Shown here: in pieces, positions 11,059-35,625 of the stretch
How positions within the stretch are numbered: the stretch's first letter is position 1
Layout: every line of letters begins with the position of its first letter
Assembly: GCF_018070075.1 (NCBI RefSeq)
Contig: NZ_JAGPXE010000007.1
Coordinates: 186,001-250,000 of the forward strand
Reading direction: 5' to 3'
Length of the DNA stretch: 64,000 nt
Source: Saccharopolyspora endophytica
GTDB lineage: Bacteria > Actinomycetota > Actinomycetes > Mycobacteriales > Pseudonocardiaceae
Program-made: the position numbers and the translations under genes
The notes under the pieces: generated by a model
Databases searched by the model: none
Told to the model about the DNA's origin: nothing
What the model saw: the letters and a program-made list of their open reading frames with translations, nothing else

Positions 11059-11155
11059 TGGGCCACGAGGACATCCAACACCTCCACACTGACCAGGGCA
11101 GGTGCCCTGGCGCAGACTGGGCAAGATCTCGGCTGGTTGACCCGGTGGGCGCTCC

Positions 11156-11836: not shown

Positions 11837-11895
11837 CCACGCCCCTCGGTCACTGACCCGCTTACCCACGTCCTGGACCCGAGCGGTTGGTCAGA

Positions 11896-11914
11896 CCGGG
11901 TCAGTTTCACCCGG
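11896..11914 (+). terminator. Weak stem-loop after bioD
   Basis: CCGGGT (11896-11901) and ACCCGG (11909-11914) form a 6-bp stem with a 7-nt loop, 60 bp after the bioD stop. There is no T-tract, so this is only a possible end for the operon transcript. Confidence 0.35.
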
Positions 11915-11932
11915 CAGCGACAGTCACCATGA

Positions 11933-12784
11933 GTGATCGCGAGAGGTGAGAACTCGACGCGGAACGGTATTGCTCTGCGCCAGCAGGCTCGCCTGAGTCG
12001 TGGCGAGGCTGCCAGCAGCGGCCGGCGCACTGTCGACACCTGGCTTCCGATCCACGACTGGACCGAAACCCAGGTATGGCAACGCATCCATGCGTCAGGT
12101 GTGCCGTACCACCCGGCCTACGACCAGGGCATGACCCGCCTGTCGTGCTCCCTCTGTGTGCTCGCCAGCCGCGCGGATCTGGTTCGCGCCGCACAACTAC
12201 GCCCGGAACTGGCCGCCGAGTACGCGGAGCTGGAAGCCGAGATCGGGCACCGGTTCCGCAACGACCTGTCCATGGCCGAGATCATCACCGCCGCCGAGCA
12301 AGCCGCAACCGCGGGACACACCGAGGAGACAGCCACGATCGAGCTCGGCCAGGGCCAACTGTGGTGGCCGAGGTTCGAACGCCAGTCCGACCGCTACGGC
12401 ACCGTGTTCCTGCTCACCGGTCCGGATGCCGAGGACTACGTCTCGTTCGAGAACGCACCCGTCGGCCAACCGGGACGACTCGTCGCCATCGTGGTCGAGA
12501 CACGTCGCTCCGAGCACTGTGGCGACATAGCGCGGTCCCTGGCACCCGTCACGCCGACGGTCGGCGAGGAGATCACGCTCGGCGCCGGCACGTTGTTCAC
12601 CGACACCGATGCCGATCTCGGCATACCCACCGCCGTCGGCCTCGCGCCGGACGACAACCGGGACGCCGACTGGCTCGACCCACGCGCCTTGTACCGCTGC
12701 CACAACCAAACCGTGCGGCTCGAACTCCGCATCAGCAGCCACACCAACAAGCGCGCACACGACACCAGGCCACGCGCAGCCTGA
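11933..12784 (+). pseudogene. N-terminally truncated phosphoadenosine-phosphosulfate-reductase-family protein
   Basis: Residues from ~33 onward carry the C-terminal half of a PP-loop/PAPS-reductase-family protein common on actinobacterial mobile DNA: WLPIHDWTETQVW, ASGVPYHPAYDQGM, RLSCSLCVLA and EIGHRFRNDLSMAE. The N-terminal ATP-binding half is missing, and a stop codon (TGA 11930-11932) precedes the first usable GTG. The last ~150 residues (Asp/Thr-rich) are a domain I do not recognise. The frame is still open, but without its PP-loop the protein is probably inactive. It marks the start of the mobile-DNA region. Confidence 0.6.
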
Positions 12785-12869
12785 GAGCCGTCGCTGGCGC
12801 GGCGAACAAAGTCACAAAGGCCGTCCCTGCTCAATCGCCACACGAACCCCACCGCACACGCCGAGTGCG

Positions 12870-13150
12870 GGAAGAAGGAGAACGTACGTGACCAGGCTGA
12901 TCGAGTCCGGCTATGACGGGCAGTTCGTCACTGACCAGGTCGGTCATTCCCACGCGGCGACCACGGCGATCTACACGGCGGTCAGCAGCGACTTCAAGAA
13001 CCTAAAGGTCCGCGAGCACCTGGACGCGGTGCCGAGGAAGCCGTGCTGCAACGCGCCTTCGCGATGGCCGAGACGGAGGCGGAGATGGACGACGACTTCA
13101 GCGATCACACGTCAGGTGAGCCTGCTGGCCGCCGGAGGAGGGTGCGATGA
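12870..13150 (+). pseudogene. C-terminal remnant of a tyrosine recombinase
   Basis: The frame gives RRTYVTRLIESGYDGQFV, DQVGHSHAATTAIY and SSDFKNLKVREHL, the final catalytic His and Tyr region of a tyrosine recombinase. Everything upstream of the HxxR box is missing. Around 13030 the reading shifts: the family-like continuation (EEAVLQRAFAMAETEAEMDD) lies in another frame and ends at 13150. That frame's stop overlaps the ATG of the HTH gene (ATGA), which shows the original gene order. Non-functional. Confidence 0.65.
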
Positions 13151-13530
13151 ACGCGGTGTCCCGGCAAGGACCGGACGAGCAGAACGACGACGTGCAGGTC
13201 CGGCAGCCGCGCTACGAGTGGCGGCTGCGTGAGCTGATGGCGGTCCGCAAGAACTGGTACACCACCACGAAGCTGATCCCGGAGTTGCGCAAGTACGGCT
13301 TCGAGTTCGACCGCAGCTCGATCTACCGGCTCGTCAGCACCGAACGTCCGCCGAAGATGCCGATCGAGTTGATCCTGGCCTTGTGCAAGATCCTCGACTG
13401 CCGCTTCGAGGACCTGGCGGTGGAGGTCGAGCCGCAATCGGCCACCGAGGAGCCGGCTCGCCGGGGTCCGCGGCCGGCCGTGCCGGACATGCCGTTGTTG
13501 TCCGCGGACTTCTTCGACGCCGAGAGCTGA
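13147..13530 (+). CDS. Cro/C1-type helix-turn-helix protein of an integrase element
   Basis: A 127-residue protein. Residues ~25-85 form an HTH domain (LRELMAVRKNWYTTTKL, DRSSIYRLVSTERP, LILALCKILDCRFEDLA) of the Cro/C1-like type with the closing 'CKxLDC..DL' motif. A proline-rich tail follows. It sits between a tyrosine-recombinase remnant and a cysteine-rich zinc-ribbon gene and overlaps the former's ancestral stop (ATGA). It is probably the element's regulator or a recombination accessory factor. Confidence 0.7.
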   Translation: MNAVSRQGPDEQNDDVQVRQPRYEWRLRELMAVRKNWYTTTKLIPELRKYGFEFDRSSIYRLVSTERPPKMPIELILALCKILDCRFEDLAVEVEPQSATEEPARRGPRPAVPDMPLLSADFFDAES

Positions 13531-13550
13531 CCGGACACCGGGTCACGCAC

Positions 13551-14800
13551 GTGGGGAAAGGGCGAGGTGTCTGCGCCAGCTGTGGATGCGACCGATCTCT
13601 GGTCGCTAGCGGGCTGTGCCATACCTGCTACCACGCCCGCCGGGACAAGGAGAGCTGTGTCGGGTGTGGCCGTCTGACCGTTCCGATTGGACGTACGGCG
13701 GAGGGGGCGTGGTGCCAGAACTGCAACGGAAAGCGCCGGGCCGAACCGTGCTCGCTGTGCGGTCGGTCGGGGCGGGTGGCCGCGCGGCGCTACGGGCAGC
13801 CGGTGTGTTCGCGGTGTTGGCAGCGCGAGCGGCGCGTCCCGCTGCCCTGCTCGGTATGCGGGCGGACGATGAAGGCCACGAAGAACAGCCCGCAGGGCCG
13901 GGTCTGCTACACCTGCCACCGCAAGACCGTTCCCCGCGAGCCCTGCTGGATGTGCGGCAAGGTCGTGCTGGCCGCCGCCCACACCGAGGAAGGAGCGTGG
14001 TGCGAACGATGCCGCCGGACGCATCTGGCCGAGCCCTGCTCACGATGCGGCCAGACGGCGCCGGTCACCGTCCGCGACGACGAGAAACGGCCGGTGTGCC
14101 GGCGGTGTTGGCAGCGCGGGCATCAACGGCCGCTGCGCCGGTGCATCGACTGCGGCGAGGACAAGCCTGCGGCTCGGCTCATCGAGGACGGGCCACTGTG
14201 CGAGAAGTGCGACAACCGGCGTGCGCCGGAGGTGCTGTGCCCGCGCTGCGGGAAGACCCGCAAGGTCGGGATTCTGAGCACGGGGGTTTGCCGGGCCTGC
14301 GCCCAGCAAGCTGGGCCACGCCAGCCGTGCCACAACTGCGGCCGGACCAGGTTGGTGGCCTACCGCGACGCCGACGGCGAACCGTGGTGCGACGGCTGCC
14401 GCCGCCAGACGCTGGCCGAACCGTGCTCGGGCTGCGGCGTCCACAAGGTGGTGTGCGCGCGTGACCATAATGGACCGTGGTGCAAAGCGTGCTGGGAAGT
14501 GGTGCGGCCCGGTCCGCCGTGTACCGACTGCGGGCAACGACCGTCGATGTCCGTGCCAGCTACGGACGGTGTGGCCAGGTGCGTGCCGTGCTACCTGGCC
14601 GCCCAGGTCCCCTGCACCCGATGCGGAACCACCGCCCGCGCCGAACGACATTGGCCGGAGGGCCCGGTCTGCCTGTCCTGTGTGGACGCGGTACGGCTCA
14701 CACACGAGCACTGCCACTGCTGCGGCCAACTAGCCGCGGTGTTCCGCCGCGAGCCCGCCGGGCCGTTGTGCCCGGACTGCGCGGGCGTCACCTTCTCCTA
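13551..14800 (+). pseudogene. Cysteine-rich multi-zinc-ribbon protein, 5' part (split by the transposon)
   Basis: From GTG 13551 the frame encodes ~416 residues made almost wholly of CxxC knuckles, about two dozen pairs spaced 15-25 residues apart (CASCG, CVGCG, CSLCG, CWMCG, CPRCG, CHCCG and so on), which would give roughly ten or more zinc ribbons in tandem. The Tn3-family transposon entered at a Tyr codon (TA at 14799-14800). Deleting it and one target copy restores GVTFS-Y-RCPTCGAMGRLL and continues at 21844. The preceding HTH gene lies directly upstream, suggesting one operon. Function unknown; possibly a DNA- or RNA-binding partner of the element's recombinases. Confidence 0.7.
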
Positions 14801-22222: not shown

Positions 22223-23194
22223 GTGTTTGATCTTCCGCTGGCGGTGGACGGCTTCCATGAAGGCGACCAGGTCAGCGCGGTGCAACTGGTCGAGGTTGGC
22301 GATGTGGGGGCGTTCGGTGTCCAGCCAGAGCCCAAACCGGCGCAACCCCCCGCGCAGGCTGGACATCGACTCGGCTCGCAGGACCAGCGCGCGCTCAGCG
22401 AGGTAGCGGTCCATCACCGCAGCGATGCGGGGCTTGCTGCTCAACGCGTGGCGGGGCAAGCCGCGATAGGGCACCGGCTGGGAGTTGATGATGCCGGCGT
22501 GGAACAGCGCCAACCCGGCGCGGAACGCATTGGTTCCCCACGCTGCGCTCAATCCGGCCAGGCGAGCTGGTGGAACAACCTCGCCGATCCCGGGCACCCG
22601 GTCCAAGTGCTGGATCGTGCGCCGCATCCCCTCCACATCGTCGGCGGTGACGGCGCCCAGATCCGGATCACCGCGGCGCAGTACCAGCCGGATCAGCGCC
22701 CACGACAGCCGGAAGCTCTGCTCGTCGTCGACGTGCCCGAGCGCGATCAATCGCTCTCGCAGGTCGTCGGCTTGCAGGCTCAGCGGCAGACCGAGCTGGT
22801 CGGCGACCCGCCACGGCTTGAGCACGCCGATGCCCAGCAGCCAACCCCAATCCAGGCGCAGACGGCCGGTCAACGCGAGATAGGTCAGGTAGGTGCGGGC
22901 GTTGAAGTTGATCCATCCCAGCGTCGGATCGGCATCCGCAGCCGGGCTGGCACGTTGGTTCTGGGACTCGCCGGCCCGCCAGCCGAGCCGTTGCCGCAAC
23001 GGCAGATCGAACCAGACCGTCAGGTCCGGATAGGTGCCCCTGAACCGGCGGGAGAAGTTCAAGTGCTTGCGCCGCCCAGGTTCGGTCAGCGGCATCCGCG
23101 AGGTGAAGGCCGCGTACTCGACGTCGTCGCAGTGGCAGGGGATCGTCCGGCCGGAGGTGGGCAGTGAAGCGCGTAGCGCCCCGTTCCCGCTCAC
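22222..23194 (-). pseudogene. Truncated second tyrosine recombinase
   Basis: The ATG at 23194 overlaps the stop of the upstream recombinase (ATGA). About 320 residues of the N-terminal part of a large (~650-740-residue) actinobacterial tyrosine recombinase are present (WINFNARTYLTYLALTGR, WGWLLGIGVLKPWRVADQ, MSSLRGGLRRFGLWL). The sequence ends after HRQRKIKHWT, where it runs antisense into the zinc-ribbon gene. No catalytic Arg/His/Tyr region remains, so it is non-functional. Confidence 0.65.
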
Positions 23195-24324
23195 CGCGGT
23201 TGGTCCCCGACCGCGTGCCGGTAGTCCTTGACGACTTCCGGATCACTGACGCGGATGTAGACCTGCATCGACTCCGGGGTGGCGTGTCCGAGCCGGGTCA
23301 TCAGCGTGAGCTCCCGCATCCCGCCCTCGAACATTCGCGTGGCGTGGGTGTGGCGAAGGCTGTGCGGCGTCAACCACGCATCCCGCACCCCGGCCCGTTC
23401 GGCGGCGCGGGCGAACATCCGCACCGCACCGTCATAGCCGAGCGGTTCGCAACGACGTTTTCCCTTGCCACCAACCAGAAACACCCACGAATCCTCGGCG
23501 TCTGCGGGTCGTTCGTGCATCACGTAATCGGTGAGCGCGGGCAGGGCACGGCCCTCCAACAGGTCGACGACCCGGTCGCGGCGCGACTTCTGGCGAACTC
23601 CTCGTGGATGGTCGTTCCGCTTCCGGATGGTGACCCGCCGCTGCCCGTAGGAGATGTCCTCCAGCCGCAGACCGAGCGCCTCGCCGGGGCGCAGGCCGCC
23701 TTCCCACATCACCTCCAGCAACGCCCGATCCCGCCGCTTGCGCAGCTGGCCCAGCAGCGCCGAATAGACCTCCGCAGCCATCGGGCGCGGCAACGCCTCC
23801 ACCGTCTTCACCCGCAACACTCTGCGCACCGGCCGCTGTTTCCGAGCGTTGTCCAGCGGCGGGCGCGACCGTCCCGGCACCCTCGCCGCGGCCTGGTCCG
23901 TCACCTTGACAATCGGGTTCTCGCGGCCCGCGTAGCTCTCGCTGGCGATCAGGAACTCGTAGAACGACGACACCGCGGCCATGATCCGATTGCACGTCTT
24001 CGCCGACAGCACCCGGCCCTCACCAGCGACCACGCCCAACTCCAGACGCTGTGCCCGCCGCGACGAGGACACCAGCCGCAACCACTGCAAGAACTCCATC
24101 GCCCGCGCCGGAGTGAACTCACCGGCCGCCAGCCCCGCCTCGGCCAGGAACAAGTACAGCTTCTGCAGGTCATGGGCATACGCCCGAACCGTATTCGGCG
24201 AGAACTCCCGAACAGCCAGCAACCGCAGAAACCCCTCGACCTCGACCACGGACGCGCCGGTTCCGTCAACCAGACGCACAGCCGGCTGACCAGGACCAGC
24301 ACCAACCACTTTCACCACGTGCAT
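23191..24324 (-). CDS. Tyrosine recombinase (XerD-like integrase)
   Basis: A 377-residue recombinase. The N-terminal core-binding domain (FLRLLAVREFSPNTVRAYAHDL) is followed by a complete catalytic domain: Arg in MWEGGLRPGEALGLRLEDI, His-x-x-Arg in LTPHSLRHTHATRMF, then MTRLGHATPESMQVYIRV with the nucleophilic Tyr. ATG 24324 (MHVVKVVGAG) is preferred; the frame is open further upstream but without similarity. It is the first gene of a recombinase pair whose partner is truncated. Together with the HTH and zinc-ribbon genes it appears to derive from one multi-recombinase element family. Confidence 0.85.
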   Translation of the reverse strand: MHVVKVVGAGPGQPAVRLVDGTGASVVEVEGFLRLLAVREFSPNTVRAYAHDLQKLYLFLAEAGLAAGEFTPARAMEFLQWLRLVSSSRRAQRLELGVVAGEGRVLSAKTCNRIMAAVSSFYEFLIASESYAGRENPIVKVTDQAAARVPGRSRPPLDNARKQRPVRRVLRVKTVEALPRPMAAEVYSALLGQLRKRRDRALLEVMWEGGLRPGEALGLRLEDISYGQRRVTIRKRNDHPRGVRQKSRRDRVVDLLEGRALPALTDYVMHERPADAEDSWVFLVGGKGKRRCEPLGYDGAVRMFARAAERAGVRDAWLTPHSLRHTHATRMFEGGMRELTLMTRLGHATPESMQVYIRVSDPEVVKDYRHAVGDQPR

Positions 24325-24409
24325 GTGCCGAACCCTAAGCCCGTCACGCACCAGCCGCCGTGGCAACAAAGAGTGAACTGTCCAGATAAGACGGTCGCCT
24401 GGCCCCGCC

Positions 24410-25239
24410 CCGTTGCCTCCCCGGATGCTGCCGACCCCGCAGGCCCGCGACGGCGACAACCGAGGTCCGGCGGACCCGGTGCGGCGTCGAGCTGGTGGGC
24501 ATCAAGTGAATCTGCACGACGCGGTGGACGCGGTGATGAAGCTGCTGCCTACGCCGACCGCCTCGGATGCGAAGAACTGCACTCACAGGACGCAGGGTGG
24601 TGGTCCGTCGCTGCCCGACGAGGCGCGGCTGCTGCCGACGCCGAGGGCGTCGGACACCGGCACGGCGGGTCGCCGGGCGGGTGCGGGTTTCCGGCCGCCG
24701 TTGTCGCAGCAGGTGCTTCCGCTGGTCGACCCCGAGGCGTTCCTGCCGACGCCTCGGGCGACCGACGGGACGAAGGGCTGCCCGGCGCAGCGGGGGTCGA
24801 AGGGCGACCTGATGCTTCCGTCGGCGATCATGCGGCTGCTCGCACCGGACGCCGACGGCGGCATCTCGTAGCCGTCGCCGACCCGGATCTCGCCTCGCCA
24901 GCATCGGTGCATCCCGAGGTGGACTGGGGCGACTACGCGCCGGCCGTGCGGCGCTGGGAACAGGTGCTCGGGCGACCCGCACCGTTCCCCACGCAACCGG
25001 GCGTCCATGGGCGCCCCGTGCTGGCCCCGGCCTTCGTCGAATGGCTCCAAGGGCTCGAGCCGGGCTGGGTAACGGGACTCCCGCTGCCGCGCACCGCGCA
25101 ACTTCGTGCGTTGGGCAACGGCGTCGTTCCGCAGCAGGCCACGTATGCCGTCGGGTTGCTGCTCGCCGACCTCGCCGCGCTCCTCGGCGCCGGTTCCACC
25201 GAGCCCTCCGGATATGCGGAGGAGGCGAACGCGGCATGA
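24410..25239 (+). pseudogene. C-terminal remnant of a DNA cytosine-5 methyltransferase
   Basis: The frame from ~24413 has the repeated LLPTPxASD motifs seen in phage/ICE-type Dcm enzymes (MLPTPQARDGDN, LLPTPTASDAKN, LLPTPRASDT, FLPTPRATDGTKG). Near 24870 a frameshift moves the reading to another frame with the real C-terminus: YAPAVRRWEQVLGRPAP, FVEWLQGLEPGWVTGLPL and AQLRALGNGVVPQQA. The catalytic Cys domain is missing, cut off by the recombinase element at its 5' side. Its stop overlaps the ATG of the next gene (ATGA), so it was the first visible gene of the modification operon. Confidence 0.7.
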
Positions 25240-25841
25240 CCAATCCAGCCTCCGTTCACGACGCCGGTCCGGTCTTGCGATGCCTCTCGCTCGGCGCCGG
25301 AGTCCAGAGCAGCGCCGTCCTGCTGCTGGCCTGCGAGGGCGTGATCCCGCGCTTCGATGTCGCGCTGTTTGCTGACACCGGCTGGGAACCACGCGCGGTG
25401 TACGCGAACCTCGCCCGGCTCCGTGCGCACGCGGCGAAGTTCGGCATTCCGGTGCGCACGGTGTCGGCGGGCAACATCCGCGACGACGCGCTCGACCCGG
25501 CCCACCGGTTCGTGTCGATGCCACTGCATGTCCTCAACCCCGACGGCAGCCGTGGCTTGGCGCGTAGGCAATGTACTAGCGAGTACAAAATTTCGCCGCT
25601 GAAGAAGACGGCACGCGAACTGCTCGGCTACCCGCATCCACGACGGGTGCCGCGCGGGGTGTACGTCGAGCAGGCCATCGGCATCAGCACCGACGAGTTC
25701 ACCCGCGCGAAGGACTCGGGCGTGCGCTACCTGCGCAACGTCTTCCCGCTGATCGACCTCGGCTGGGACCGCACGCGGTGCGCCGACTATCTCGCCGAGC
25801 GCGGGTTCGGCGAGACGGTGAAAAGCGCCTGCGTCGGGTGC
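25236..25841 (+). pseudogene. PP-loop (PAPS-reductase-like) protein, 5' part, interrupted by an integrase element
   Basis: 202 codons of an adenine-nucleotide alpha-hydrolase/PAPS-reductase-like protein. The PP-loop is CLSLGAGVQSSAVLL near residue 20, followed by ALFADTGWEP and ARRQCTSEYKISPLK. After KSACVGC the reading frame passes into foreign DNA. The rest of the gene (PFHGNAGWRWLRDND...) resumes at 30301 in frame. The ATG overlaps the methyltransferase stop. Such proteins are common on actinobacterial integrative elements; the substrate is unknown. Confidence 0.8.
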
Positions 25842-25877
25842 CTTATGTGGAATCTGAGCTGGCTAGGTTGCCAGTTC

Positions 25878-26900
25878 ATGATCACAGTGCAGTGGGAGCG
25901 CTATCCCCTGGTAGACCAGCATCCTGAAGGCCGTCGATGGTTGCAGTTCACAGCGAACATCGGGCGAGCCTGGAACACGGTGGACGCCTACGGACGCGCG
26001 GTGGATGACCATCTCGCGTTCTGCTTGACGATCGGCACCAGCCCGGAAGCGGCGCGGCCGGATGTCGTCGCGGCGTGGATCGGTGACATGCATCAGCGGC
26101 CGAACCGGAACGGCGGCGTCGGGCTGGCGAACTCGACCATCCAGGTACGGATCATTGGTGTCCGGTCGTTCTACGATTTCCTTGTCGAGGAAGGGATCCG
26201 GGAACGCAACCCGGTCCGGCGTGGACAGTCCAGCCGCCGAGGAGGTCAGGCGAGGCAGGGCTTGGTACGGCGGGTGGAGAAGGCGCCGTGGATCCCGAAC
26301 GACCATGCCTGGGACCGCATCCTGCGGGCGTGTGAGCACGAGCCGGTGCGCAACCGGCTGATGGTGACCTTCGCCTACGACGGCGCGCTGCGCCGCGAGG
26401 AGCTGGTGTCGCTGGAGCCGGGGGACCTGGAACCGGCCTGGTCGTTGATTCACCTGCGGGCGGAGACGACCAAGTCCAAACGCGCCCGCGAGGTGTCCTT
26501 CGGCACCACCTCCGCGCAGCTGCTGGTGGCCTACCTGCGCCAGCGCGGCGAGCTGTTCGGCCGAGTCGACAGCGGCCTGTTCCTCAGCGAGTCCCGCCGC
26601 AACCGCGGCGAACCGCTGGGCCGATCGAGCTGGTCGAAGATCGTTACCGGCGTCGCGAAACGGGCCGAGGTTCCGCAGCTGTCCACCCACACCTTCCGGC
26701 ACCTGCGGCTGACCGACCTGGCTCGCGCGGGGTGGAGCATCGACGAGATCGCCCAGTACGCCGGTCACCGTGACCTGTCCACGACGCTGAAGTACATCCA
26801 TCTGTCCGGTCGGGAACTGGCCGCCAAGCTGCACAAGGCCACCCGCTCGTTGCAGGCTGACCGCGAGCGCCGTCTCGCCGCTCTGGTGGAGGCATGGTGA
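25878..26900 (+). CDS. Tyrosine recombinase, first of the pair
   Basis: A 340-residue recombinase. The N-terminal SAM-like core-binding region (WNTVDAYGRAVDDHLAF, FYDFLVEEGIRERNPV) is followed by the catalytic domain: Arg in FAYDGALRREELVSLEPGD, His-x-x-Arg in STHTFRHLRLTDLARAGWS, and AQYAGHRDLSTTLKYIHLS with the terminal His and Tyr. ATG 25878 is used because the upstream part of the open frame belongs to the interrupted PP-loop gene. Its last 7 bases overlap the next recombinase gene, so both are made from one message. Confidence 0.88.
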   Translation: MITVQWERYPLVDQHPEGRRWLQFTANIGRAWNTVDAYGRAVDDHLAFCLTIGTSPEAARPDVVAAWIGDMHQRPNRNGGVGLANSTIQVRIIGVRSFYDFLVEEGIRERNPVRRGQSSRRGGQARQGLVRRVEKAPWIPNDHAWDRILRACEHEPVRNRLMVTFAYDGALRREELVSLEPGDLEPAWSLIHLRAETTKSKRAREVSFGTTSAQLLVAYLRQRGELFGRVDSGLFLSESRRNRGEPLGRSSWSKIVTGVAKRAEVPQLSTHTFRHLRLTDLARAGWSIDEIAQYAGHRDLSTTLKYIHLSGRELAAKLHKATRSLQADRERRLAALVEAW

Positions 26901-29113
26901 CCGCGCGGAACGGCGAGCTGACCGTCACCGAGCGGGAGGCGCTCGCCAAGACCTACGACCAGCCCTGCCCTCGGTCGAGCCAGGCGCGCAGGCTGGTGCT
27001 GCGGAGGCTGCTGGAGCCGATCAACGAGGTGACCGGTCACTGGGGCGAGAAGAACGCCGCCCGCGTCTGCAACAGCGTACTGGGCCGGGTGCACAAGGAA
27101 CAGCGGCCGTACTGGCGCTGGGATGAGGCGACCTGGATCGACCTCGCCGAGCAGGCCGGAGTCTCCAGCGACCGCGCGCAGCGCGCGCCGGTGATCGCCG
27201 TGGCGCACCTGCTGGGCCTGCACCGCAGCTTGCACCACCATGTGCAGGTTCAGGAATCGAGGGTTGCCGACCTGGTGTTCGGCCGCGACGCGTTCCAGGT
27301 GGTGTTGGCCGAGGTGATCGACACGTTGCGCTCGTGGGACGCGTCCCAGCACACCGTGGTCGGCCAGATCCCGGCGGCGTTGAGCGACCTGCTGCTGGTG
27401 ACCGGCACGCCGCGCCTGCAGGACATCACCGAGCAGCGGATCCGCGAACTGGCCGAGCGGTATCCGGCAGGTGCGCGGCGGCGCGGGCTGATCAAGATTT
27501 CGCGGGTGCTCGCGCACAAGGGCATCATCGCCACGGCGCTGCACGGTAACGACACTCAGCGCGGACCGCGGCCGGACACCCTGGCCACGGTGCCACCGAG
27601 CTGGCTGGCCTGGGCGCAGCGCTGGCGAGACCTGTCCACTCATGAGCCGGGCACGATCCGCGGGATGTTCTCGGTGATCCTCATCGCCGGACGCTGGGCG
27701 GCCGAGAAACACCCCGAGGCGCTCGAACCGCAGCTGTGGACCCGCGATATCGCCGCCGAGTACGTCGCCGACACCCTGCACGCGGTCCACGGGCAATGGG
27801 CCGGGCACAACCGCAACACCACCAAGCGCGGCCAGCCGCTGACCGCCGTGGGCAAGGTGCAGCGCATCGACAGCCTGCGCGGGTTCTTCTCCGACTTGAT
27901 CGAGTGGGAGTGGATCAAACCCAGGTTCGACCCGCGCAAGGCCCTGGCCGGACCGCTGTCGGTGCGCGCCCAGATCGGCCCGAATCCACGGATCATCGAC
28001 GAGGTCTCCTGGGCCAAGCTGATGGCCGCCGGGCTCACGCTCAACAGCGAGGACCTCAACGAATACGGCACCCCGCGGGCCAAGGCCACCGCCGATGGCC
28101 GGCGGTTGTACTACCCGATCGAGATGGTCCGCGCCCTGGTCGGCGTGTGGCTGTTCGCCGGGTGCCGCATCGACGAGATCCGCCGACTGGACGTCGACTG
28201 CATCGACCGGGACGAGGGCCGCGACGACAAGACCGGGGAGACCTTCCCGATCTGCCTGCTGCGAGTGCCGCAGAACAAGACCTCGCGGCCGTTCTCCAAG
28301 CCGGTCGACCCGATCGTCGGCCAGCTCATCGATGCGTGGAAGCACGTCCGGCCGTCGCAACCCAAGATCGTGGACCGCAAGACCGGTGAGCACCGCGAGT
28401 TCCTGTTCTGCGTCCGCGGCGAGCAGATCGGCCGGGCCTACCTCAACGACACCGTGCTGCCCGCGCTCTGCCGCAAGGCCGGTATCCCCGAATCCGACTC
28501 CCGAGGAGCGCTGACCAGCCACCGCGCCCGGTCCACCATCGCCACCCAACTACTCAACGCACTTGAGCCACTGTCCATTGCGGACCTGAAGGAATGGTTG
28601 GGGCACAAGCACTTCTCCAGCACCCGGCACTACGCTGCGATCCTGCAACGCCGACTCACCGCCGCCTACCGCAAGGCCGACTACTTCGCCCGCAACGTGC
28701 GCACCATCCAGGTGCTCATCGACCGGGAGACCATCCTGTCCGGCGGCGCGACCGATGGTGAGCAGCCGTGGAAGTACTACGACCTCGGGGACGGGTACTG
28801 CACCTACGACTTCTTCGCCAAATGCCCGCACCGGCTCGCTTGCGCCCGCTGCCCGTTCTACCTGCCCAAGGAATCCAGCGCCGGGCGCTTGCTCGAAGTC
28901 AAAGACGGCGTCGACCAGATGCTCGAACGCCTCACCCTCACCGACGACGAACGCGCCGCCCTCGAAGGCGACCGCGACGCCCTCGCCACGCTGGCCGAAC
29001 GCCTCGCCAAAGTCCCCACCCCCGCCGGGCCTACACCGGAGCAACTCGGCACAGATCGCGCGTTCGTCGCGCTCACCACCGTTCAGGACAGCCTCACCGG
29101 AGGACGACCATGA
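26894..29113 (+). CDS. Large tyrosine recombinase, second of the pair
   Basis: A 739-residue recombinase. The N-terminal ~350 residues are helical and family-specific. Catalytic residues follow: Arg in LFAGCRIDEIRRLDVDC, the SHRARSTIATQLLN helix in the His-x-x-Arg position, and LKEWLGHKHFSSTRHYAAI with His and Tyr. A C-terminal cysteine cluster (YCTYDFFAKCPHRLACARC) is probably a zinc knuckle. It starts inside the end of the first recombinase gene. Paired unequal recombinases like these usually act together on one element. Confidence 0.88.
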   Translation: MVTARNGELTVTEREALAKTYDQPCPRSSQARRLVLRRLLEPINEVTGHWGEKNAARVCNSVLGRVHKEQRPYWRWDEATWIDLAEQAGVSSDRAQRAPVIAVAHLLGLHRSLHHHVQVQESRVADLVFGRDAFQVVLAEVIDTLRSWDASQHTVVGQIPAALSDLLLVTGTPRLQDITEQRIRELAERYPAGARRRGLIKISRVLAHKGIIATALHGNDTQRGPRPDTLATVPPSWLAWAQRWRDLSTHEPGTIRGMFSVILIAGRWAAEKHPEALEPQLWTRDIAAEYVADTLHAVHGQWAGHNRNTTKRGQPLTAVGKVQRIDSLRGFFSDLIEWEWIKPRFDPRKALAGPLSVRAQIGPNPRIIDEVSWAKLMAAGLTLNSEDLNEYGTPRAKATADGRRLYYPIEMVRALVGVWLFAGCRIDEIRRLDVDCIDRDEGRDDKTGETFPICLLRVPQNKTSRPFSKPVDPIVGQLIDAWKHVRPSQPKIVDRKTGEHREFLFCVRGEQIGRAYLNDTVLPALCRKAGIPESDSRGALTSHRARSTIATQLLNALEPLSIADLKEWLGHKHFSSTRHYAAILQRRLTAAYRKADYFARNVRTIQVLIDRETILSGGATDGEQPWKYYDLGDGYCTYDFFAKCPHRLACARCPFYLPKESSAGRLLEVKDGVDQMLERLTLTDDERAALEGDRDALATLAERLAKVPTPAGPTPEQLGTDRAFVALTTVQDSLTGGRP

Positions 29114-29124
29114 ACACCCCACCA

Positions 29125-29361
29125 CTACTCGGATCCAGGCCCGAACAACACCTCGCCGTCACTGCCACCGAGCAGAAGCGTGAACCGGTTGAGATCGTTG
29201 CGCAGCTGGCGGGTGTCGTAGGCGCGGTTGCCGACGAAGCTGCTCAGCGACTCGTCGACGTGATCGGCCTCGGTGGCAAGCCAGTCGTGGACGAACTGAA
29301 ACAGCTCGACGAGCTCGGCCGCGTCGCCGATGTCCAGATTTACAGAGGGCATGATGGGCAC
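29125..29361 (-). CDS. Small hypothetical cargo protein
   Basis: A 78-residue acidic protein (VNLDIGDAAELVELFQFV, ESLSSFVGNRAYDTRQL) that I do not recognise. GTG 29361 is preceded by AAGGA. It runs opposite to the recombinases, converges with the end of the second one, and follows the next gene by 33 bp, so the two probably form a cargo operon. Confidence 0.55.
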   Translation of the reverse strand: MPIMPSVNLDIGDAAELVELFQFVHDWLATEADHVDESLSSFVGNRAYDTRQLRNDLNRFTLLLGGSDGEVLFGPGSE

Positions 29362-29394
29362 AATCCTTGGTCAGGGTTGGCTGAAGGTTGGGGA

Positions 29395-30099
29395 TCAGCC
29401 AGACGAGTCTGTGCCGGACTCCTGCTGGCCAGCGGGCAACGGGATTGGGACAGTGGTCTGCCCGCCGGGATGTTCAACGACCAGGGTGAGAGCGCGTGCT
29501 TGTTCCGGTGGGCCTGGTTCAAGCGTGCACCTCTCGACAAACAAGACGTGCGACCCCGATCCACCCCCGCCTCCGCCTCGATACTGGGTTCCGACATCAT
29601 CCCACCCGCGCCAGCGCACACCTGGTCCGAACCGTTCTCGCATCCGACGCGCATCGATGTCGACATGCGCGAGATTCAGCGCGAGGAAGGTCGACCACAC
29701 CTCCAGGCTCACCAGATTCGCCGTTACCTCCCCGATCGTGAGGCTGCGTCCCACCAACGGAACAATGTGGCGCAGTACGGGAGTGGGCGGATCTTCGATT
29801 GCCCGCCGCCACTCGGGTCGCTCAATGCCCACTCGCCTGGCCACAGCCTCGCCGCTGCTCGTGGCCGACGTCTCCTGTCGCACGACCGTGAGCCAACCGG
29901 AACGCTGCAGGGTCACCTCCAGGTCGGCGAGGATCTGCTCGGCCTCCTCCTGACGGAGTGCCCCCGCGGCCACCAGCCCGATCGCCACCCCACGGATCTC
30001 AAACCGGTTGAAGCTATTTTGCCTGCCGAGTGCCGGCTGTCCCTTGCCCGCTCCCAGACTGTCGGCAATCAGCTTCTCCAGATATCCACGCCCGTCCAT
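29395..30099 (-). CDS. Hypothetical cargo protein with a glycine-rich linker
   Basis: About 234 residues from ATG 30099 (MDGRGYLEKLIADSLG), which has AGGA at a suitable distance; a TTG at 30174 would add 25 residues. It has a helical N-terminal part (GLVAAGALRQEEAEQILADL) and a beta-rich C-terminal part (VEVWSTFLALNLAHVDIDA-like). A short poly-Gly run (YRGGGGGGSGSH) comes just before the C-terminal ~50 residues. There is no signal peptide. I know no family for it. Its position suggests an accessory gene carried by the recombinase element. Confidence 0.5.
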   Translation of the reverse strand: MDGRGYLEKLIADSLGAGKGQPALGRQNSFNRFEIRGVAIGLVAAGALRQEEAEQILADLEVTLQRSGWLTVVRQETSATSSGEAVARRVGIERPEWRRAIEDPPTPVLRHIVPLVGRSLTIGEVTANLVSLEVWSTFLALNLAHVDIDARRMRERFGPGVRWRGWDDVGTQYRGGGGGGSGSHVLFVERCTLEPGPPEQARALTLVVEHPGGQTTVPIPLPAGQQESGTDSSG

Positions 30100-30297
30100 A
30101 CCGTCATCCTGCACCACCGAGAGCGGGAAACGGGCCTCGTTCTGCGAAGTCTCGTGTCGCTGGAGCAGAGGCAAGGATCATTGCCCGCCTTGTCTCGGCA
30201 GCAGCGGCCCGGTCGAACCAATCGACTCCCAACCAGCGTCACCCTCGCGCGACAGCACAGCAGGCGGGCACATCGTTACCGGATATTCGCAATAACT

Positions 30298-30615
30298 TGC
30301 CCATTCCACGGCAACGCGGGCTGGCGCTGGCTGCGCGACAACGACCCCGACGGCTGGGCCGAGGCGGTCGAGTTCGACAAAGCCATCCGCGACGGCTACC
30401 CGCACGCCACGACTCAAGGTCAGCAATTGCGCGGGCAGTACTTCTTGCACCGGTCTTGTCGACCACTCGGCGAAGTCGACCTCGACCCGCCCGCTCTCGG
30501 AAAGCGGCACCTGCGGCTGGTCTCCACCAAGGCGGTGGAGGAGGACGATCCCGACGGCTGCTCGCCGTGGTCGTGCCGGTCCGGCGCACCGGTCACTGTG
30601 GAGCGTGCGGCATGA
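30298..30615 (+). pseudogene. PP-loop (PAPS-reductase-like) protein, 3' part
   Basis: The second half of the gene beginning at 25236: C-PFHGNAGWRWLRDNDPDGW, EFDKAIRDGYPHATTQGQQL, GQYFLHRSCRPLGEVDLDPP and a cysteine-containing end (DGCSPWSCRSGAP). It is cut off from its start by the inserted element. Its stop overlaps the ATG of the VUT gene (ATGA), so downstream genes may have lost their normal translational coupling. Confidence 0.8.
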
Positions 30616-31161
30616 CCGGGCTGCCGCGCTCGCCCGCGACGGCGGGGCACGGGCTCGTCTGGGCGGGTCTGGCGGTGTCGGCCGCCTACGTCGGCTCGGT
30701 GGTGATGGCGAACTGGGCCTTCCACGCACTGGTCGGCTCTGCTCGTCAGCTCGCTGATCGTGCCCGCCGGCACGCTGTGGGCCGGGGTGACGCTGACGCT
30801 GCGAGACCTGCTGCACGAGACCCTGGGCACGTCGGGCGTTCTCGCCGCGATCGTGGTGGGGGCGTGGCTGTCCTGGTCGTTGGCCTCACCGCAGATCGCC
30901 GTCGCGAGCGTTGTCGCGTTCGCCGTGTCCGAGTGCGTCGACTCGGTCATCTACGGCCGGATTCGGGGCCGGTCGCGGCTGGGCGCGGTCGTCGGCTCGA
31001 ACGTCGTCGGGCTGGTGAGCGACAGCGTGCTGTTCGTGCCGCTGGCGTTCGGGTCCTTCGCCGCAGTGCCCGGTCAGATCCTCGGCAAGGCGGTCGCGAC
31101 CGCGCTCACCGTTGCGGTGTTGCTGCTCGCGAATACCGCTCGGCGGGCGGTGTCACGATGA
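30612..31161 (+). pseudogene. VUT-family (YhhQ/QueT-like) membrane transporter, frameshifted
   Basis: The first frame (from ATG 30612) gives HGLVWAGLAVSAAYVGSVV and a first membrane segment. Around 30720 the family-like sequence changes frame and continues as ALLVSSLIVPAGTLWAGVTL, LRDLLHETLGTSGVL, FAVSECVDSVIYGRIRGR and LFVPLAFGSFAAVPGQILG, to a stop at 31161. The whole would be ~182 residues with five or six membrane helices. VUT-family members include transporters of queuosine precursors (7-deazaguanines). Both ends overlap neighbours by ATGA. A single-base error in the assembly cannot be excluded. Confidence 0.7.
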
Positions 31162-32054
31162 GGTTCTTCCTTGGGACCCATCAGCCGTCCTGGCTCGCCC
31201 GCGATCTCGGTGTCCCACTGTTGGTCTCCCACCGCAGGCTGGCCGATCGGCGCAGCCTTCCGCGCGCGAGCGCGCCGTGGGCGTGCGACTCCGGAGGCTT
31301 CACGGAGTTGTCGATGCACGGCAGGTGGCGCATCGACGAACGCGGCTACGTCGCGGCGCTTCGCCGCTACGCCACCGAGATCAGCAACCTCGCGTGGGCC
31401 GCGCCAATGGACCACATGACGGAGGCTCATGTCTTGGCACGCACCGGTGCGACGGTGCGCGTCCATCAGCACCGCACGGTCGCGAACTACCTGCGGCTGC
31501 GTGATCTCGCCCCCGAGTTGCCGATCATCCCCGTACTGCAAGGCCAGTCCATTGCGGACTACAACCGGTGCGCGGACTTCTACGAACGACACGGCGTCGA
31601 TCTCGCCGCACTGCCGCTGGTCGGGGTGGGCAGTGTGTGCCGACGCCAGCACACCGCTGAAGTCGAGCAGATCATGCGGTCGCTGTCGGCTCGCGGGTAC
31701 CGCTTGCACGCTTTCGGAGCGAAGGTGCTCGGGCTGGGGCGCTATGCCGACGCGATCTCCAGCAGTGACTCGGCGGCCTGGAGTTTCCGGGGCAGGTATG
31801 TGCCCGGCTGCACGCCCAGCCACCGCAGCGAATCCAACTGCCTGCGCTTCGCGCTGGCTTGGCACACCAGGCTTCTGACCTCCTTGCGCGCCGAAGAACC
31901 CGGCCATCAGTCCGACCGCGGGCCGACTTCCGCGCGCGGCAAGGGACCGCGAGCAGGCGGCCAGAGAACCGGACGCACCCGCCCTGGCTCGCCGCGTCCG
32001 CGCCAGGCCGGAGGCCGGACGGCCGCTCGCACGCAGAACTCGCGCGCCTCATAG
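31158..32054 (+). CDS. DpdA-like deazapurine DNA/tRNA transglycosylase
   Basis: A 298-residue protein related to tRNA-guanine transglycosylases and to DpdA, which inserts preQ0-type bases into DNA. Diagnostic features are Asp44 in ACDSGGFTEL (the TGT base-binding DSGGF motif), APMDHM, PIIPVLQGQS, VGVGSVCRR, LHAFGAKVLGLGR and Asp204 in SSSDSAAWS (the nucleophile position). The C-terminal ~60 residues after LAWHTRLLTSL are Arg/Gly/Pro-rich and probably disordered. It overlaps the transporter gene (ATGA). It is the only intact gene of the four-gene operon. DNA rather than tRNA as substrate is inferred from the neighbours. Confidence 0.75.
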   Translation: MRFFLGTHQPSWLARDLGVPLLVSHRRLADRRSLPRASAPWACDSGGFTELSMHGRWRIDERGYVAALRRYATEISNLAWAAPMDHMTEAHVLARTGATVRVHQHRTVANYLRLRDLAPELPIIPVLQGQSIADYNRCADFYERHGVDLAALPLVGVGSVCRRQHTAEVEQIMRSLSARGYRLHAFGAKVLGLGRYADAISSSDSAAWSFRGRYVPGCTPSHRSESNCLRFALAWHTRLLTSLRAEEPGHQSDRGPTSARGKGPRAGGQRTGRTRPGSPRPRQAGGRTAARTQNSRAS

Positions 32055-32079: not shown

Positions 32080-32820
32080 ATGCCTTCGAACACCACCGCG
32101 CAGGATGAGTCCGGCGACCGCATTCCGCGTTGGGCTGCGACCGCCGGCCGCCAGACTTTCGGGCAGCGCCTCACAGCGATGGGCGTCCGGCTGTTCGGGT
32201 CGGCGACGGAGCCGGACACCGGTGAGGTCACGCCGTCGTGGCGCGTGCGGCAGCACGTCCTGCGCGACTACCACGCCGCGAACCTTGTTGCGGCCCGCAC
32301 CGTGTCCGAGGAATTGGTTCGCGCCGGTTTCAACACCGGAGACGTGCCTTATGGCTATCGCGCTCGGCGGGTCCGGGTCACTCCGGCGGGCCGACGAGCG
32401 CGCTGGCGCACTCGGCTGCAGATCGAACCGGTCGAAGCGTCCACGGTGCGGATGATTTTCGTGTGGAGGGGCGAGGATCGCTTGTCCACCACGGAGATCC
32501 GTCGCCGACTCGCCGCGTCCCGCTACCCCGCGCCGTTGGACCCCGAGACAGGCGAGCCAGGCGTGTGGACGGTGGCGATTGTGCGGGCGATCCTGCGTAA
32601 CCCGAAGTACCTCGGCCGCCAGGTCTGGGGGCGCACCCACCACGGAAAGCCGACTCCGCAAGCTGACTGGGTCTGGTCGGAGGTGTGGGTGCACCCGCCG
32701 CTGGTGACCGCCGAGGAGTTCGCCGCCGCCGACCGGCGCTGGTGGGGTGTCCCCGCCTCGGCCGGGGCCAACGACTTCTCCGCGAATGCGCTGCCGCCCG
32801 ACCAACGGCGGGCCGCGTGA
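32080..32820 (+). CDS. Recombinase-domain-only protein (serine-recombinase relative without catalytic domain)
   Basis: A 246-residue protein with the central 'Recombinase' DNA-binding domain of large serine recombinases (VPYGYRARRVRVTPAGRR, IEPVEASTVRMIFVWR, WTVAIVRAILRNPKYLGRQ, PPLVTAEEFAAADRRW). It has no N-terminal resolvase domain and no catalytic serine. A TTGGAG ribosome site precedes the ATG. It lies upstream of a full large serine recombinase and could be a DNA-binding accessory or directionality factor. Its stop overlaps the next gene's start (TGATG). Confidence 0.7.
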   Translation: MPSNTTAQDESGDRIPRWAATAGRQTFGQRLTAMGVRLFGSATEPDTGEVTPSWRVRQHVLRDYHAANLVAARTVSEELVRAGFNTGDVPYGYRARRVRVTPAGRRARWRTRLQIEPVEASTVRMIFVWRGEDRLSTTEIRRRLAASRYPAPLDPETGEPGVWTVAIVRAILRNPKYLGRQVWGRTHHGKPTPQADWVWSEVWVHPPLVTAEEFAAADRRWWGVPASAGANDFSANALPPDQRRAA

Positions 32821-33469: not shown

Positions 33470-33730
33470 ATGACGGGCGCGAACGCAGAACCTTCCGGAA
33501 ACTGGTGCAAAGGTGTTTTCTCCGCAACGCTATCGGCGGCCTCGACCGCAGCGGAGCCGAAGCTTCGGGTCGTCACCTACCGGCGTATGGCATCAGACGC
33601 CCCGGCCACGGCTGCCTCCCTGGACGCGCAGCGCGCGGCGTGCCAACGCCTTATCGAAGAGCTCGGCCTGCACCTCGTTGACGTGTTCATCGAGCCCGAG
33701 CACTCGGCGACCGAGACGAGCGCGCGATGA
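33470..33730 (+). CDS. Serine-recombinase N-terminal fragment lacking the canonical catalytic motif
   Basis: An 86-residue product from ATG 33470. It parallels the start of the next gene (SLDAQRAACQRLIEELGLHL against SIPAQRVKCQRKAEQLGLTI; EPEHSATETS against EPGRTATEMS). The strand that carries the catalytic serine reads VVTYRRMASDAP instead of VIYLRVSSAGQ, and the domain is cut after ~85 residues. It could be a decayed duplicate or a small partner that regulates the full recombinase. The end overlaps the next ATG. Confidence 0.55.
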   Translation: MTGANAEPSGNWCKGVFSATLSAASTAAEPKLRVVTYRRMASDAPATAASLDAQRAACQRLIEELGLHLVDVFIEPEHSATETSAR

Positions 33731-35625
33731 CCAGTGCATACGACGATCTCGTCGACGAACTGCTCGGGGATGACGCTCTCCCTGCCGTCCTATCGACGGT
33801 CGCCGAAGCGGTGGAGCCGGGAAGCCGGGCAGTGATCTATCTGCGGGTGTCATCGGCTGGCCAGGTCAAGAACGACTACGACCCCGAAGGTATCTCGATA
33901 CCCGCCCAGCGCGTCAAATGCCAGCGCAAAGCCGAGCAACTCGGCTTGACGATCATTGATGAATACGTCGAGCCTGGTCGCACAGCGACCGAGATGTCGA
34001 AGCGAGTCGAGTTCCAGCGGATGCTCACGCGAGTTCGCAACGCGGGCGACGTCGACTACATCATCGTCTACAAGCTGTCCCGGATGGCGCGGAACCGGCT
34101 CGACGACGCCATCGTCATGGCCGATCTCCGTAAGCGCGGGGTCACCCTCGTGTCGGCCACCGAGTCCATCGACGACTCGCCGGTCGGTCAGCTCATGCAC
34201 GGCATCCTGGCCACCTTCAACGAGTATCAGTCGCGGGAGTCCGGCGCGGACATCGCGTACAAGATGAAGCAGAAAGCCAAGAATGGCGGCACGATCGGCC
34301 GCGCGCCGCTGGGCTACCTCAACGTCCGAGACCGGTTCGACGGCCGCGAAATCCGCACCATCGCCGTCGACCCCGAACGCGCGCCCTTTGTCCAGCTTGC
34401 TTTCGAGCTCTACGTCACCGGTGACTACTCGTTGGAAGACCTGTCCGACGAGCTCTACGATCGCGGCCTGCGCACCCGGCCCACCGGTCGCCATCCCGCC
34501 AAGCAAGTCTCGATCAACAAGCTCTCCATGATGCTGCGAGACCGCTACTACCTCGGATACGTAGAGGTCGATGGCGAGGAGGTCCAAGGCCGGCACGAGC
34601 CACTCATCGACGAGGACCTGTTCGATCGCGTCCAGGATCTCCTCGAGTCCCGCTCCACGGCAGGAGAACGCCGCCGCGAGCACCCCCACTACCTCAAGGG
34701 CTCGTTGTTCTGCGGACGCTGCAAACGAGCGGGCATCACCCAGCGGCTGATCGTCCAGCACACCGTCAACTCCCGAGGCAGCGAATACACCTACTTCTTC
34801 TGCCGCAACAAGCAGAACGGCAGCTGTGAAGCACCGCACATCAACGTCGCCCTTATCGAAGACGCCGTGGAAAACCACTACGCCACGATCCGCTTCAGCG
34901 CCAAGTTCGTCGCCACCGTCCGCGCCGAAGTCGCCCGCACCATCGACGAGCAAGAAGCGTCCGAGCGACTGCTCCACAAACAACTCACCACCGAGTTGCA
35001 GGCGCTGGACACCCGCGAAGAGAACCTCATCGAACTGGCGGCCGACTCCACCATCGGGCAGGACAAGATCAAGACCAAGCTCCGCGAGATCGCCCGCCAG
35101 CGACGACGCCTCGGCGAACGCCTCACCACCACGACCGAGAACCTCTCCGACAGCGCCCGGCTCATCGAAGCCGCGCTCACCTTGCTGGAGAACCCCCAAG
35201 AGCTCTACCGCCGCTGCGACGAACAGCAACGCCGCATGCTCAACCAAGCGATCTTCCACAGCATCTACGTCGATGACGACCAGATCGCCGACCACAGCCT
35301 CCGAGAGCCCTTCGCACATCTGCACGCCGTCCAGAGCGACTGGCAGACCACCGACGTGACCGTGCCGGAGCCACGAACCGACACCCGACCCCGAAATGCC
35401 AAAAGGGCCGCCTCCCAAAAGGGAGGCGGCCCCGTGGCTACCAACGGTCTTCAGGTCCTACTACGTGGCGTTGTTTCGGTGCCGTGTTCTAGTAAGACCC
35501 CTAGGGTGGAGCTGAGGGGAATCGAACCCCTGACCTTCTCGATGCGAACGAGACGCGCTACCAACTGCGCTACAGCCCCTCACCAGAGGTTCAAGCCCTC
35601 CGGCTTTGTTGTGAAGGAAGCTTAG
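33727..35625 (+). CDS. Large serine recombinase (integrase)
   Basis: Up to 632 residues. The resolvase domain has catalytic Ser42 in IYLRVSSAGQ and VYKLSRMARNRLDDA. Then come the Recombinase domain (APLGYLNVRDRFDGREI), a zinc ribbon (FCGRCKRAGITQ...FFCRNKQNGSCEAPH) and a long coiled-coil (residues ~390-500). The frame runs on through a strong hairpin and antisense through tRNA-Ala, so the last ~65 residues are probably not native; the functional protein may end near 35400. It is the likely integrase of the island that abuts the tRNA. Confidence 0.85.
   Translation: MTSAYDDLVDELLGDDALPAVLSTVAEAVEPGSRAVIYLRVSSAGQVKNDYDPEGISIPAQRVKCQRKAEQLGLTIIDEYVEPGRTATEMSKRVEFQRMLTRVRNAGDVDYIIVYKLSRMARNRLDDAIVMADLRKRGVTLVSATESIDDSPVGQLMHGILATFNEYQSRESGADIAYKMKQKAKNGGTIGRAPLGYLNVRDRFDGREIRTIAVDPERAPFVQLAFELYVTGDYSLEDLSDELYDRGLRTRPTGRHPAKQVSINKLSMMLRDRYYLGYVEVDGEEVQGRHEPLIDEDLFDRVQDLLESRSTAGERRREHPHYLKGSLFCGRCKRAGITQRLIVQHTVNSRGSEYTYFFCRNKQNGSCEAPHINVALIEDAVENHYATIRFSAKFVATVRAEVARTIDEQEASERLLHKQLTTELQALDTREENLIELAADSTIGQDKIKTKLREIARQRRRLGERLTTTTENLSDSARLIEAALTLLENPQELYRRCDEQQRRMLNQAIFHSIYVDDDQIADHSLREPFAHLHAVQSDWQTTDVTVPEPRTDTRPRNAKRAASQKGGGPVATNGLQVLLRGVVSVPCSSKTPRVELRGIEPLTFSMRTRRATNCATAPHQRFKPSGFVVKEA
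35405..35432 (+). terminator. Strong hairpin near the end of the serine recombinase gene
   Basis: GGGCCGCCTCCC - AAAA - GGGAGGCGGCCC: a perfect 12-bp GC-rich stem with a 4-nt loop, preceded by AAAA, with no T-tract after it. It lies between the recombinase coiled-coil and the tRNA-Ala gene and may terminate transcription in either direction. Confidence 0.7.
35507..35579 (-). tRNA. tRNA-Ala(CGC)
   Basis: A 73-nt gene that folds into a complete cloverleaf: acceptor GGGGCTG/CAGCTCC with the alanine-specific G3-U70 pair, anticodon stem TCTCG/CGAGA with loop TTCGCAT (anticodon CGC), T-arm AGGGG-TTCGATT-CCCCT and discriminator A. CCA is not encoded. Its 3' end faces the serine-recombinase module, making it the probable attachment target of the left island. 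Confidence 0.96.

Follow-up and report, generated by a model that had tools for sequence, protein, structure and literature searches.

The operon remnant and its intact relatives

We analysed a 64,000-nucleotide stretch of the Saccharopolyspora endophytica genome (contig NZ_JAGPXE010000007.1, positions 186,001 to 250,000 of the forward strand), referred to here as the window. Its positions 24394-32054 hold a remnant of a C5-cytosine DNA methyltransferase gene, a split PP-loop gene, a frameshifted VUT transporter gene and an intact DpdA-like transglycosylase gene, in that order. The four genes are linked by ATGA overlaps, which we read in the sequence at 25236, 30612 and 31158, each where a first-pass annotation of this DNA had placed it. 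We read the locus as the degraded remains of a mobile operon, probably for DNA modification, of which only the DpdA-like gene is undamaged. Related loci carry L-numbers (L002 is from Crossiella), genomes G-numbers and contigs of the genome under study C-numbers, the window lying on C32.

The DpdA-like gene (31158-32054, plus strand) is an open reading frame (ORF) of 298 codons with no defect; its product matches PF23859 (E 4e-80) and phrog_1279 (E 2e-81), and no second copy turned up when the genome was searched with it at E 0.001. The preceding VUT/QPTR transporter gene (30612-31161, plus strand) carries one frameshift near 30735-30746. It matches Vut_1 (E 7e-13) and, under that model's cut-off, TIGR00697 (E 5e-8); the Vut_1 score is 49.7 bits for the in-frame part and 43.1 for the intact L002 copy, against a cut-off of 27.2. 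The PP-loop gene, PAPS-reductase-like and SspD-like, is interrupted by a 4.45 kb insertion with two tyrosine recombinase genes (25843-30297, plus strand; recombinase matches in 26040-26900 and 26894-29113). Its N-terminal part, residues 1 to about 202, lies at 25236-25842 (plus strand; phrog_424 E 5e-30, SspD E 2e-5), and comparison with relatives places the C-terminal part at 30298-30615 on the same strand. The methyltransferase remnant, which we take as 24394-25239 (plus strand), in agreement with the earlier start of 24410, encodes 281 C-terminal residues in one open frame; it matches the C-terminal end of its L002 counterpart with 88% identity, and its positions 24868-25236 match phrog_1008 (E 1e-34). 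The N-terminal part known from relatives was not found in the window, and a tyrosine recombinase gene (23191-24459, minus strand; Phage_integrase E 3e-25) lies at the truncation point. By comparison with L002, the N4/N6 methyltransferase gene found upstream in relatives is also missing here.

A scan of genome contigs gave 14 DpdA loci, and further loci came from a survey of 298 genomes sampled from a larger order. The full order of N4/N6 methyltransferase, C5 methyltransferase, PP-loop, VUT and DpdA genes is present in six loci (L002, L003, L009, L015, L054 and L055; L056 repeats the L015 copy), and gene order is kept in relatives from several genera. ATGA was found at all 13 junctions checked in L002, L003, L009 and L015, the PP-loop/VUT junction being checked in L002 only. 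The N4/N6 methyltransferase gene of L002 starts about 1.8 kb further upstream than the remnant does in the window. The intact operon thus comprises at least five genes, and it may have six, because a still earlier ORF overlaps the N4/N6 methyltransferase gene by four bases in L002, L003, L009 and L015; the L002 copy of this ORF, the only one searched, has no Pfam match.

The PP-loop gene is contiguous at the window's insertion point in L002, L003, L006, L009 and L015; L006 has a divergent first operon gene (34% identity), and L005, from Saccharopolyspora spinosa, carries a related recombinase insertion in the PP-loop gene. Other copies have lost genes outright: L004 retains almost no PP-loop gene, in L007 it is gone, as is most of the C5 methyltransferase gene, and L008, L010, L011 and L060 retain VUT-DpdA with neither PP-loop nor C5 methyltransferase detected. 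Because the pair survives where other operon genes are lost, VUT-DpdA appears to be the core, to which the methyltransferases and the PP-loop protein would be optional accessories. The earlier expectation that methyltransferase, PP-loop, VUT and DpdA genes stay adjacent in intact relatives is borne out in six loci, but the first two are not obligatory. Between the window and L002, dN/dS is 0.05 for DpdA and 0.09 for the N-terminal part of the PP-loop protein; the DpdA value averages over the time since the split from L002 and is no proof of present function.

A DpdA-family enzyme paired with a transporter

The 298-residue protein matches PF23859 with 269.3 bits against a cut-off of 27 (residues 2-242 on model positions 4-252 of 291) and has no match to PF01702, the TGT family, at E up to 1. 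Pfam does not place it with the tRNA-specific TGTs, and its earlier assignment as DpdA-like holds at this level. In the predicted structure (mean pLDDT 79), residues 1 to about 245 form the enzyme and residues 248-298 a low-confidence tail. The best match among solved structures is 7ui4, the DNA preQ0 insertase DpdA (Z 19.6, 3.3 Å over 231 residues); sequence search found no solved structure matching DpdA or phrog_15826, a second transglycosylase-like family described below. Residues D44-S-G, D85, Q128-G, G158 and D204 are invariant among 20 relatives, and by eye their order is that of the motifs DSGG, AFDE, VVQG, GIGG and DTFD in five TGTs from the same bacterial order. We assigned the DpdA aspartates by motif order to TGT catalytic positions, whose roles we presume. 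The modelled fold and the motifs fit base exchange, and alone they do not decide between DNA and RNA.

The genome survey links this enzyme to the transporter. It included 54 Pseudonocardiaceae, and in none of them, the genome under study included, was a TGT (PF01702) found. VUT genes were found by PF02592 in six of the 54, five of them directly beside DpdA, the sixth (G164) lying near QueD and QueC, at distances of about 1 kb and 2 kb respectively. Expressed by genome, VUT is present in 6/12 with DpdA and 0/42 others (p 4e-5, kinship not corrected), the zero holding at the sensitivity of PF02592. Three of the 12 DpdA-positive genomes (G083, G158 and G182) have fragments only; counted as negatives, they change the VUT figures to 6/9 versus 0/45 and those for QueC, discussed below, to 7/9 versus 3/45. 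Outside the Pseudonocardiaceae, the survey has 56 high-scoring VUT genes, which belong to three families (f3, f4 and f8); TGT is frequent there, as would be anticipated if these genes serve tRNA queuosine. In the whole set of 298 genomes PF02592 also detected eight low-scoring VUTs: five beside DpdA, two beside QueD/QueC (G160 and G164) and one (G262) adjoining a possibly frameshifted phrog_15826 ORF.

Viral loci were examined for the same pairing. These scans covered the best 80 of 254, the best 80 of 207 and the best 80 of 377 relatives; loci whose transglycosylases (or, for the PP-loop control, PP-loop proteins) share 80% identity or more were counted once, and QueE matches weaker than 1e-8 were ignored in neighbour counts. 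Representative numbers vary with profile and picking order (56 or 58 for viral DpdA, 27 or 26 for actinomycete DpdA). Within 6 kb of viral PF23859 DpdA, VUT was found in 24 of 58 representatives, preQ0-synthesis genes in 3, neither in 31 and both in none, a distribution that is not significant (p 0.26). The pattern is sharper for phrog_15826, for which 98 loci, some from the same contigs, were pooled into 74 representatives: 57 have VUT within 6 kb, 10 have preQ0-synthesis genes, 7 have neither and none has both (p 3e-8). Among the 46 loci in which each flank extends for 3 kb or more, 33 have VUT, 7 have synthesis genes and none has both (p 3e-5). As a control, VUT lies near phage PP-loop genes in only 3/36 representatives, all three also with phrog_15826; a second control with C5 methyltransferase yielded two viral loci only and was unusable. 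On a tree of 87 that is poorly resolved, VUT adjacency is spread over separate branches and requires 16 changes. Given this recurrence and the phage PP-loop control, we rejected chance adjacency of VUT and transglycosylase.

Individual VUT/transglycosylase pairings include Phegasus gp53-54, Aoka gp38 and gp40 (with the PP-loop protein gp36), ReqiPine5 gp04-03-02 (VUT, phrog_15826, PAPS reductase), phiLM21 p025-p026 (DpdA, VUT) and cases on Embleya and Nocardia plasmids. The pairing of a DpdA-type with a VUT/YhhQ-type gene, proposed from the window alone, is thus a real and recurrent module.

The phrog_15826 proteins, about 200 residues long, carry a DpdA-like annotation in the records of Phegasus and Aoka and have no Pfam match at E 0.01; comparison with the PF23859-type DpdA profile gave E 7e-4 and probability 27, which is suggestive only. 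As an observation in its own right, this family, listed as of unknown function, stands beside VUT or preQ0-synthesis genes in 67/74 loci and shows TGT-like motifs by eye. On a Roseivivax plasmid (L386), a PfkB kinase gene, a short QueC-like gene and VUT occur together next to conjugation genes, and neither transglycosylase profile matched there.

Possible source and target of the predicted deazaguanine base

Most simply read, the viral counts make VUT and the synthesis genes two interchangeable ways of obtaining one base. We regard VUT as a probable precursor supplier because it replaces preQ0-synthesis genes beside phrog_15826 and because five of the six Pseudonocardiaceae VUTs adjoin DpdA. 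On this basis we consider it likely, from gene content and arrangement, that the intact operon couples import to DNA modification. A 7-deazaguanine precursor, either preQ0 or something closely related to it, would enter the cell through VUT, and guanines in DNA would be exchanged for this imported base by the DpdA-family enzyme. The modified base would most likely shield the element's DNA from restriction in new hosts, and in the full version the two methyltransferases and the PP-loop protein would add further DNA modifications. An anti-restriction or self-marking role, already suggested by the first-pass annotation, is what we too infer. In the window, residual activity fed by the host may be possible, since the intact DpdA could draw preQ0 from a QueC/QueD/QueE-like set encoded elsewhere in the genome.

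Several findings weigh against this import-fed reading, some of which belong to the alternatives taken up below. The in-frame part of the window VUT, the only part scored, reaches 33.1 bits with TIGR00697 against a cut-off of 50.95. VUT is itself among the broken genes in the window, unlike the VUT-DpdA core of the relatives. DpdA occurs more often without VUT than with it: none lies within 6 kb in 17/26 actinomycete and 34/58 viral representatives. PF02592 misses divergent VUTs, those beside DpdA in G018 and G047 having been seen by a custom profile only. Exclusivity of VUT and synthesis genes is not general either, as phage CAjan has VUT inside its QueE-QueC-QueD-FolE-DpdA block. We take the singleton DpdA of phage Orion to belong to the same family as the window protein. 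In M. smegmatis, Orion has no 7-deazaguanine in its DNA, and neither the phage nor its host makes the precursor (PMC6884629). EC151 has a transporter together with synthesis genes (PMC8310023).

The host itself provides a further counterpoint. A stretch of about 13 kb on contig C2 of the genome under study encodes QueC (TIGR00364, 188 bits against a cut-off of 150), QueD (TIGR03367, 91.1 against 89.25, from a searched stretch of 91 residues) and a QueE-like protein (TIGR03365, 92 bits, where the cut-off is 206). Pseudonocardiaceae with DpdA have full QueC more often (8/12) than those without (2/42; p 2e-5, kinship not corrected); weak matches (E above 1e-9, mostly 50-70 positions) and a partial 42.6-bit match in G292 were not counted. 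The first-pass annotation had argued from the lack of synthesis genes in the window that the base is imported rather than made. Whole-genome matches to QueC and QueD do lie outside the window, on C2, C7 and C12 (QueE was not searched in the window, nor FolE anywhere), but the host set means that the base may be home-made and that the broken VUT need not have silenced DpdA. The related claim that this copy is probably inactive holds for the broken methyltransferase, PP-loop and VUT genes and less well for DpdA, which is intact and could use host preQ0.

The genes on contig C2 (L219 12160-18421, L071 3536-8910) stand with glycosyltransferase, aminotransferase, deacetylase, phosphoribosyltransferase and 5'-3' exonuclease-like genes and probably form a preQ0-based, aminosugar-nucleoside-like cluster, to judge from their gene content. 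A DUF6884-like (DpdC-type) protein, at 29.8 bits against a cut-off of 30, is encoded among them. By eye, L073 brings together QueC, glycosyltransferase, phosphoribosyltransferase and exonuclease-like genes.

These data can be cited for an alternative in which the base is host-made: DpdA elements would persist mainly in hosts whose preQ0, made through such a nucleoside-type cluster, serves a different purpose, VUT would be auxiliary or an exporter, and the DNA would still be modified. The VUT genes adjoining QueD/QueC in G160 and G164 would fit it as well. However, among 15 genomes searched (contigs of at least 3 kb, completeness not given), full-length QueC was not seen in 10, and seven of those have VUT-DpdA; import is the only source seen in those seven. 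Moreover, VUT stands beside phrog_15826 where synthesis genes are missing, which is not predicted for an exporter. We consider the host-made alternative unlikely.

A second alternative keeps the chemistry and changes its target, with the DpdA-like protein acting on tRNA or other RNA in a minimal Q-like modification of mobile elements. The structure comparison, which the first-pass annotation had recommended, did return a DNA enzyme as top match, but the DNA and tRNA enzymes are barely separated, the tRNA TGT structures among the matches listed scoring Z 17.6-18.3 against 19.6. Profile comparisons of DpdA, phrog_15826 and TGT with hhalign were weak and leave kinship undecided. PHROGs and many phage records call the family queuine tRNA-ribosyltransferase (annotation only), and other bacteria use QPTR transporters in the salvage pathway for tRNA queuosine (PMC11130926). 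Against an RNA target stand the family assignment to PF23859 rather than PF01702, operon neighbours that are DNA methyltransferases, and the many carriers that are phages, plasmids and integrative elements; we hold it to be quite improbable. Finally, that the locus is inert debris with a historical association, neither the window copy nor the family modifying DNA, is highly improbable: three genes are broken here, parts are also lost in L004, L005 and L007, and Orion DNA is unmodified (PMC6884629), but the five-gene order is complete in six loci, dN/dS is low and VUT adjacency recurs across the tree.

Carrier element, accessory genes and known systems

To the right of the operon, a gene for a stand-alone recombinase-domain protein adjoins DpdA (32080-32820, plus strand; PF07508). 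It is followed by a large serine recombinase gene (33727-35625, plus strand), the putative integrase of the element, whose L002 counterpart has Resolvase, Recombinase and Zn_ribbon_recom domains. The 3' end of the latter overlaps a tRNA-Ala (cgc) gene (35505-35579, minus strand), which probably serves as attachment site and marks where the element ends on the right. The same arrangement is found in L002 and L003; close homology to both stops at 35579, and beyond the tRNA-Ala gene homology of lower identity resumes. In L002 the operon is preceded, at a distance of about 2.7 kb, by a type IV secretion system (T4SS) pilin gene. Because a serine recombinase into tRNA-Ala is combined with a T4SS pilin gene, the carrier is most likely an integrative, perhaps conjugative, element, in line with the integrative carrier named in the first-pass annotation. 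No preQ1 riboswitch was found at gathering score in the window, L002, L003, L009 or L015.

Several further features of these elements deserve mention. The PF07508 protein that follows DpdA (L002 10904-11644) has no resolvase domain by Pfam, and a similar ORF is present in L003. In two genera, related insertions with two recombinases each interrupt the PP-loop gene, and they do so at one shared conserved site (window 25843-30297; L005 about 3310-9100), which suggests that insertion there is site-specific. Some 3 kb downstream of its intact operon, L015 has another DpdA, a fragment (11195-11487) with CRISPR repeats on either side (10352-14623). A Nocardia plasmid (L118 5884-12417) has transposition genes of the TnsA-like, TniB and TniQ types immediately downstream of VUT-DpdA.

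The variable region of the C5 methyltransferase (window 24413-24871, plus strand; L002 7716-8171) is open in two frames. Ten copies were examined, and the pattern is present in all 8 that have both flanking motifs; the +1 frame, which has one stop near its end, encodes LLPTP repeats and matches phrog_1008 (E 4e-12). Pairwise dN/dS among L002, L003, L009 and the window is 0.06-0.11 in this frame, indicating purifying selection, against 2.4-6.9 in the main frame and 2.5-3.6 in the third; both flanks of the region select the main frame (0.13-0.23). A programmed frameshift, an overlapping gene or old compensating shifts could each produce this pattern.

The PP-loop protein is SspD-like (PADLOC, E 1.5e-11), a feature shared with SspABCD phosphorothioation systems. 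The operon differs from these in that no other Ssp protein was found among the eight L002 proteins scanned, so that the SspB/SspC/SspD set is absent from them. PptA (21fy, E 0.0036) is its sole solved-structure match at E up to 1; the structure model, from an alignment of five sequences, has a mean pLDDT of 36, and its fold is not usable for comparison. A PP-loop gene lies within 6 kb in 4/56 viral DpdA representatives, and PF23859 DpdA lies within 6 kb in 0/36 phage PP-loop representatives. We rejected the PP-loop protein as an obligatory partner, as it is a minority neighbour of DpdA or phrog_15826. Possibly it tailors the inserted base further, perhaps adding sulfur, which would yield an undescribed deazaguanine. 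This idea forms part of a broader proposal, in which import-fed DNA hypermodification is general in phages and mobile elements and best seen in actinobacteria, served by PF23859 and phrog_15826 alike; in this joint form we think it decidedly unlikely.

The operon resembles several described systems and differs from each. With the Rosebush and CAjan phage systems it shares a DpdA on mobile DNA, and CAjan also has a putative preQ0 transporter; those phages encode FolE, QueD, QueE and QueC, whereas here a transporter gene overlaps DpdA instead (PMC6884629). The 26 actinomycete DpdA representatives showed no QueC, QueD or QueE gene out to 6 kb (FolE was not searched). PreQ0 transporters have been placed in phage deazaguanine clusters before, in EC151 (PMC8310023) and in a figure of PMC7472734. 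Orion-type phages with a singleton DpdA are like the actinomycete operon in lacking synthesis genes; for singleton-DpdA phages without precursor genes, Hutinet and others call modification status difficult to predict, and phage YhhQ homologues showed no correlation with any group (PMC6884629). The DpdA of mycobacteriophage DarthP is 53.5% identical to the window protein; DarthP differs from the operon in that no VUT was detected within about 6 kb of it.

Bacterial dpd islands (dpdABC plus dpdD-K) share a chromosomal DpdA and have YhhQ in about 9% of cases, and the GATOR-GC preprint suggests salvage for islands without synthesis genes (PMC11888242). Their DpdA is larger (7ui4, 413 residues), and the island also includes DpdB, DpdC and restriction genes, of which the L002 operon showed none (no genome-wide search was made for DpdB). 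The phrog_15826 proteins share with DpdA the setting of a short TGT-like protein beside VUT or preQ0-synthesis genes and differ as a separate family of about 200 residues. Neither VUT with a singleton DpdA in actinomycete elements nor the replacement pattern at phrog_15826 was found described in the open-licence papers covered by our literature searches.

The module would thus be a variant of known 7-deazaguanine DNA modification with an import supply built into the operon. Phages with a lone DpdA have been an open question, to which a transporter in place of synthesis genes gives a testable answer, and the pairing could explain DNA-disguising systems that do not make the base themselves. If this is true, modification would appear only when the precursor is imported or host-made, and laboratory growth without preQ0 would hide DNA modifications. 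A likely role would be gained for phrog_15826, and the anti-restriction traits of mobile DNA could depend on the metabolites of neighbours.

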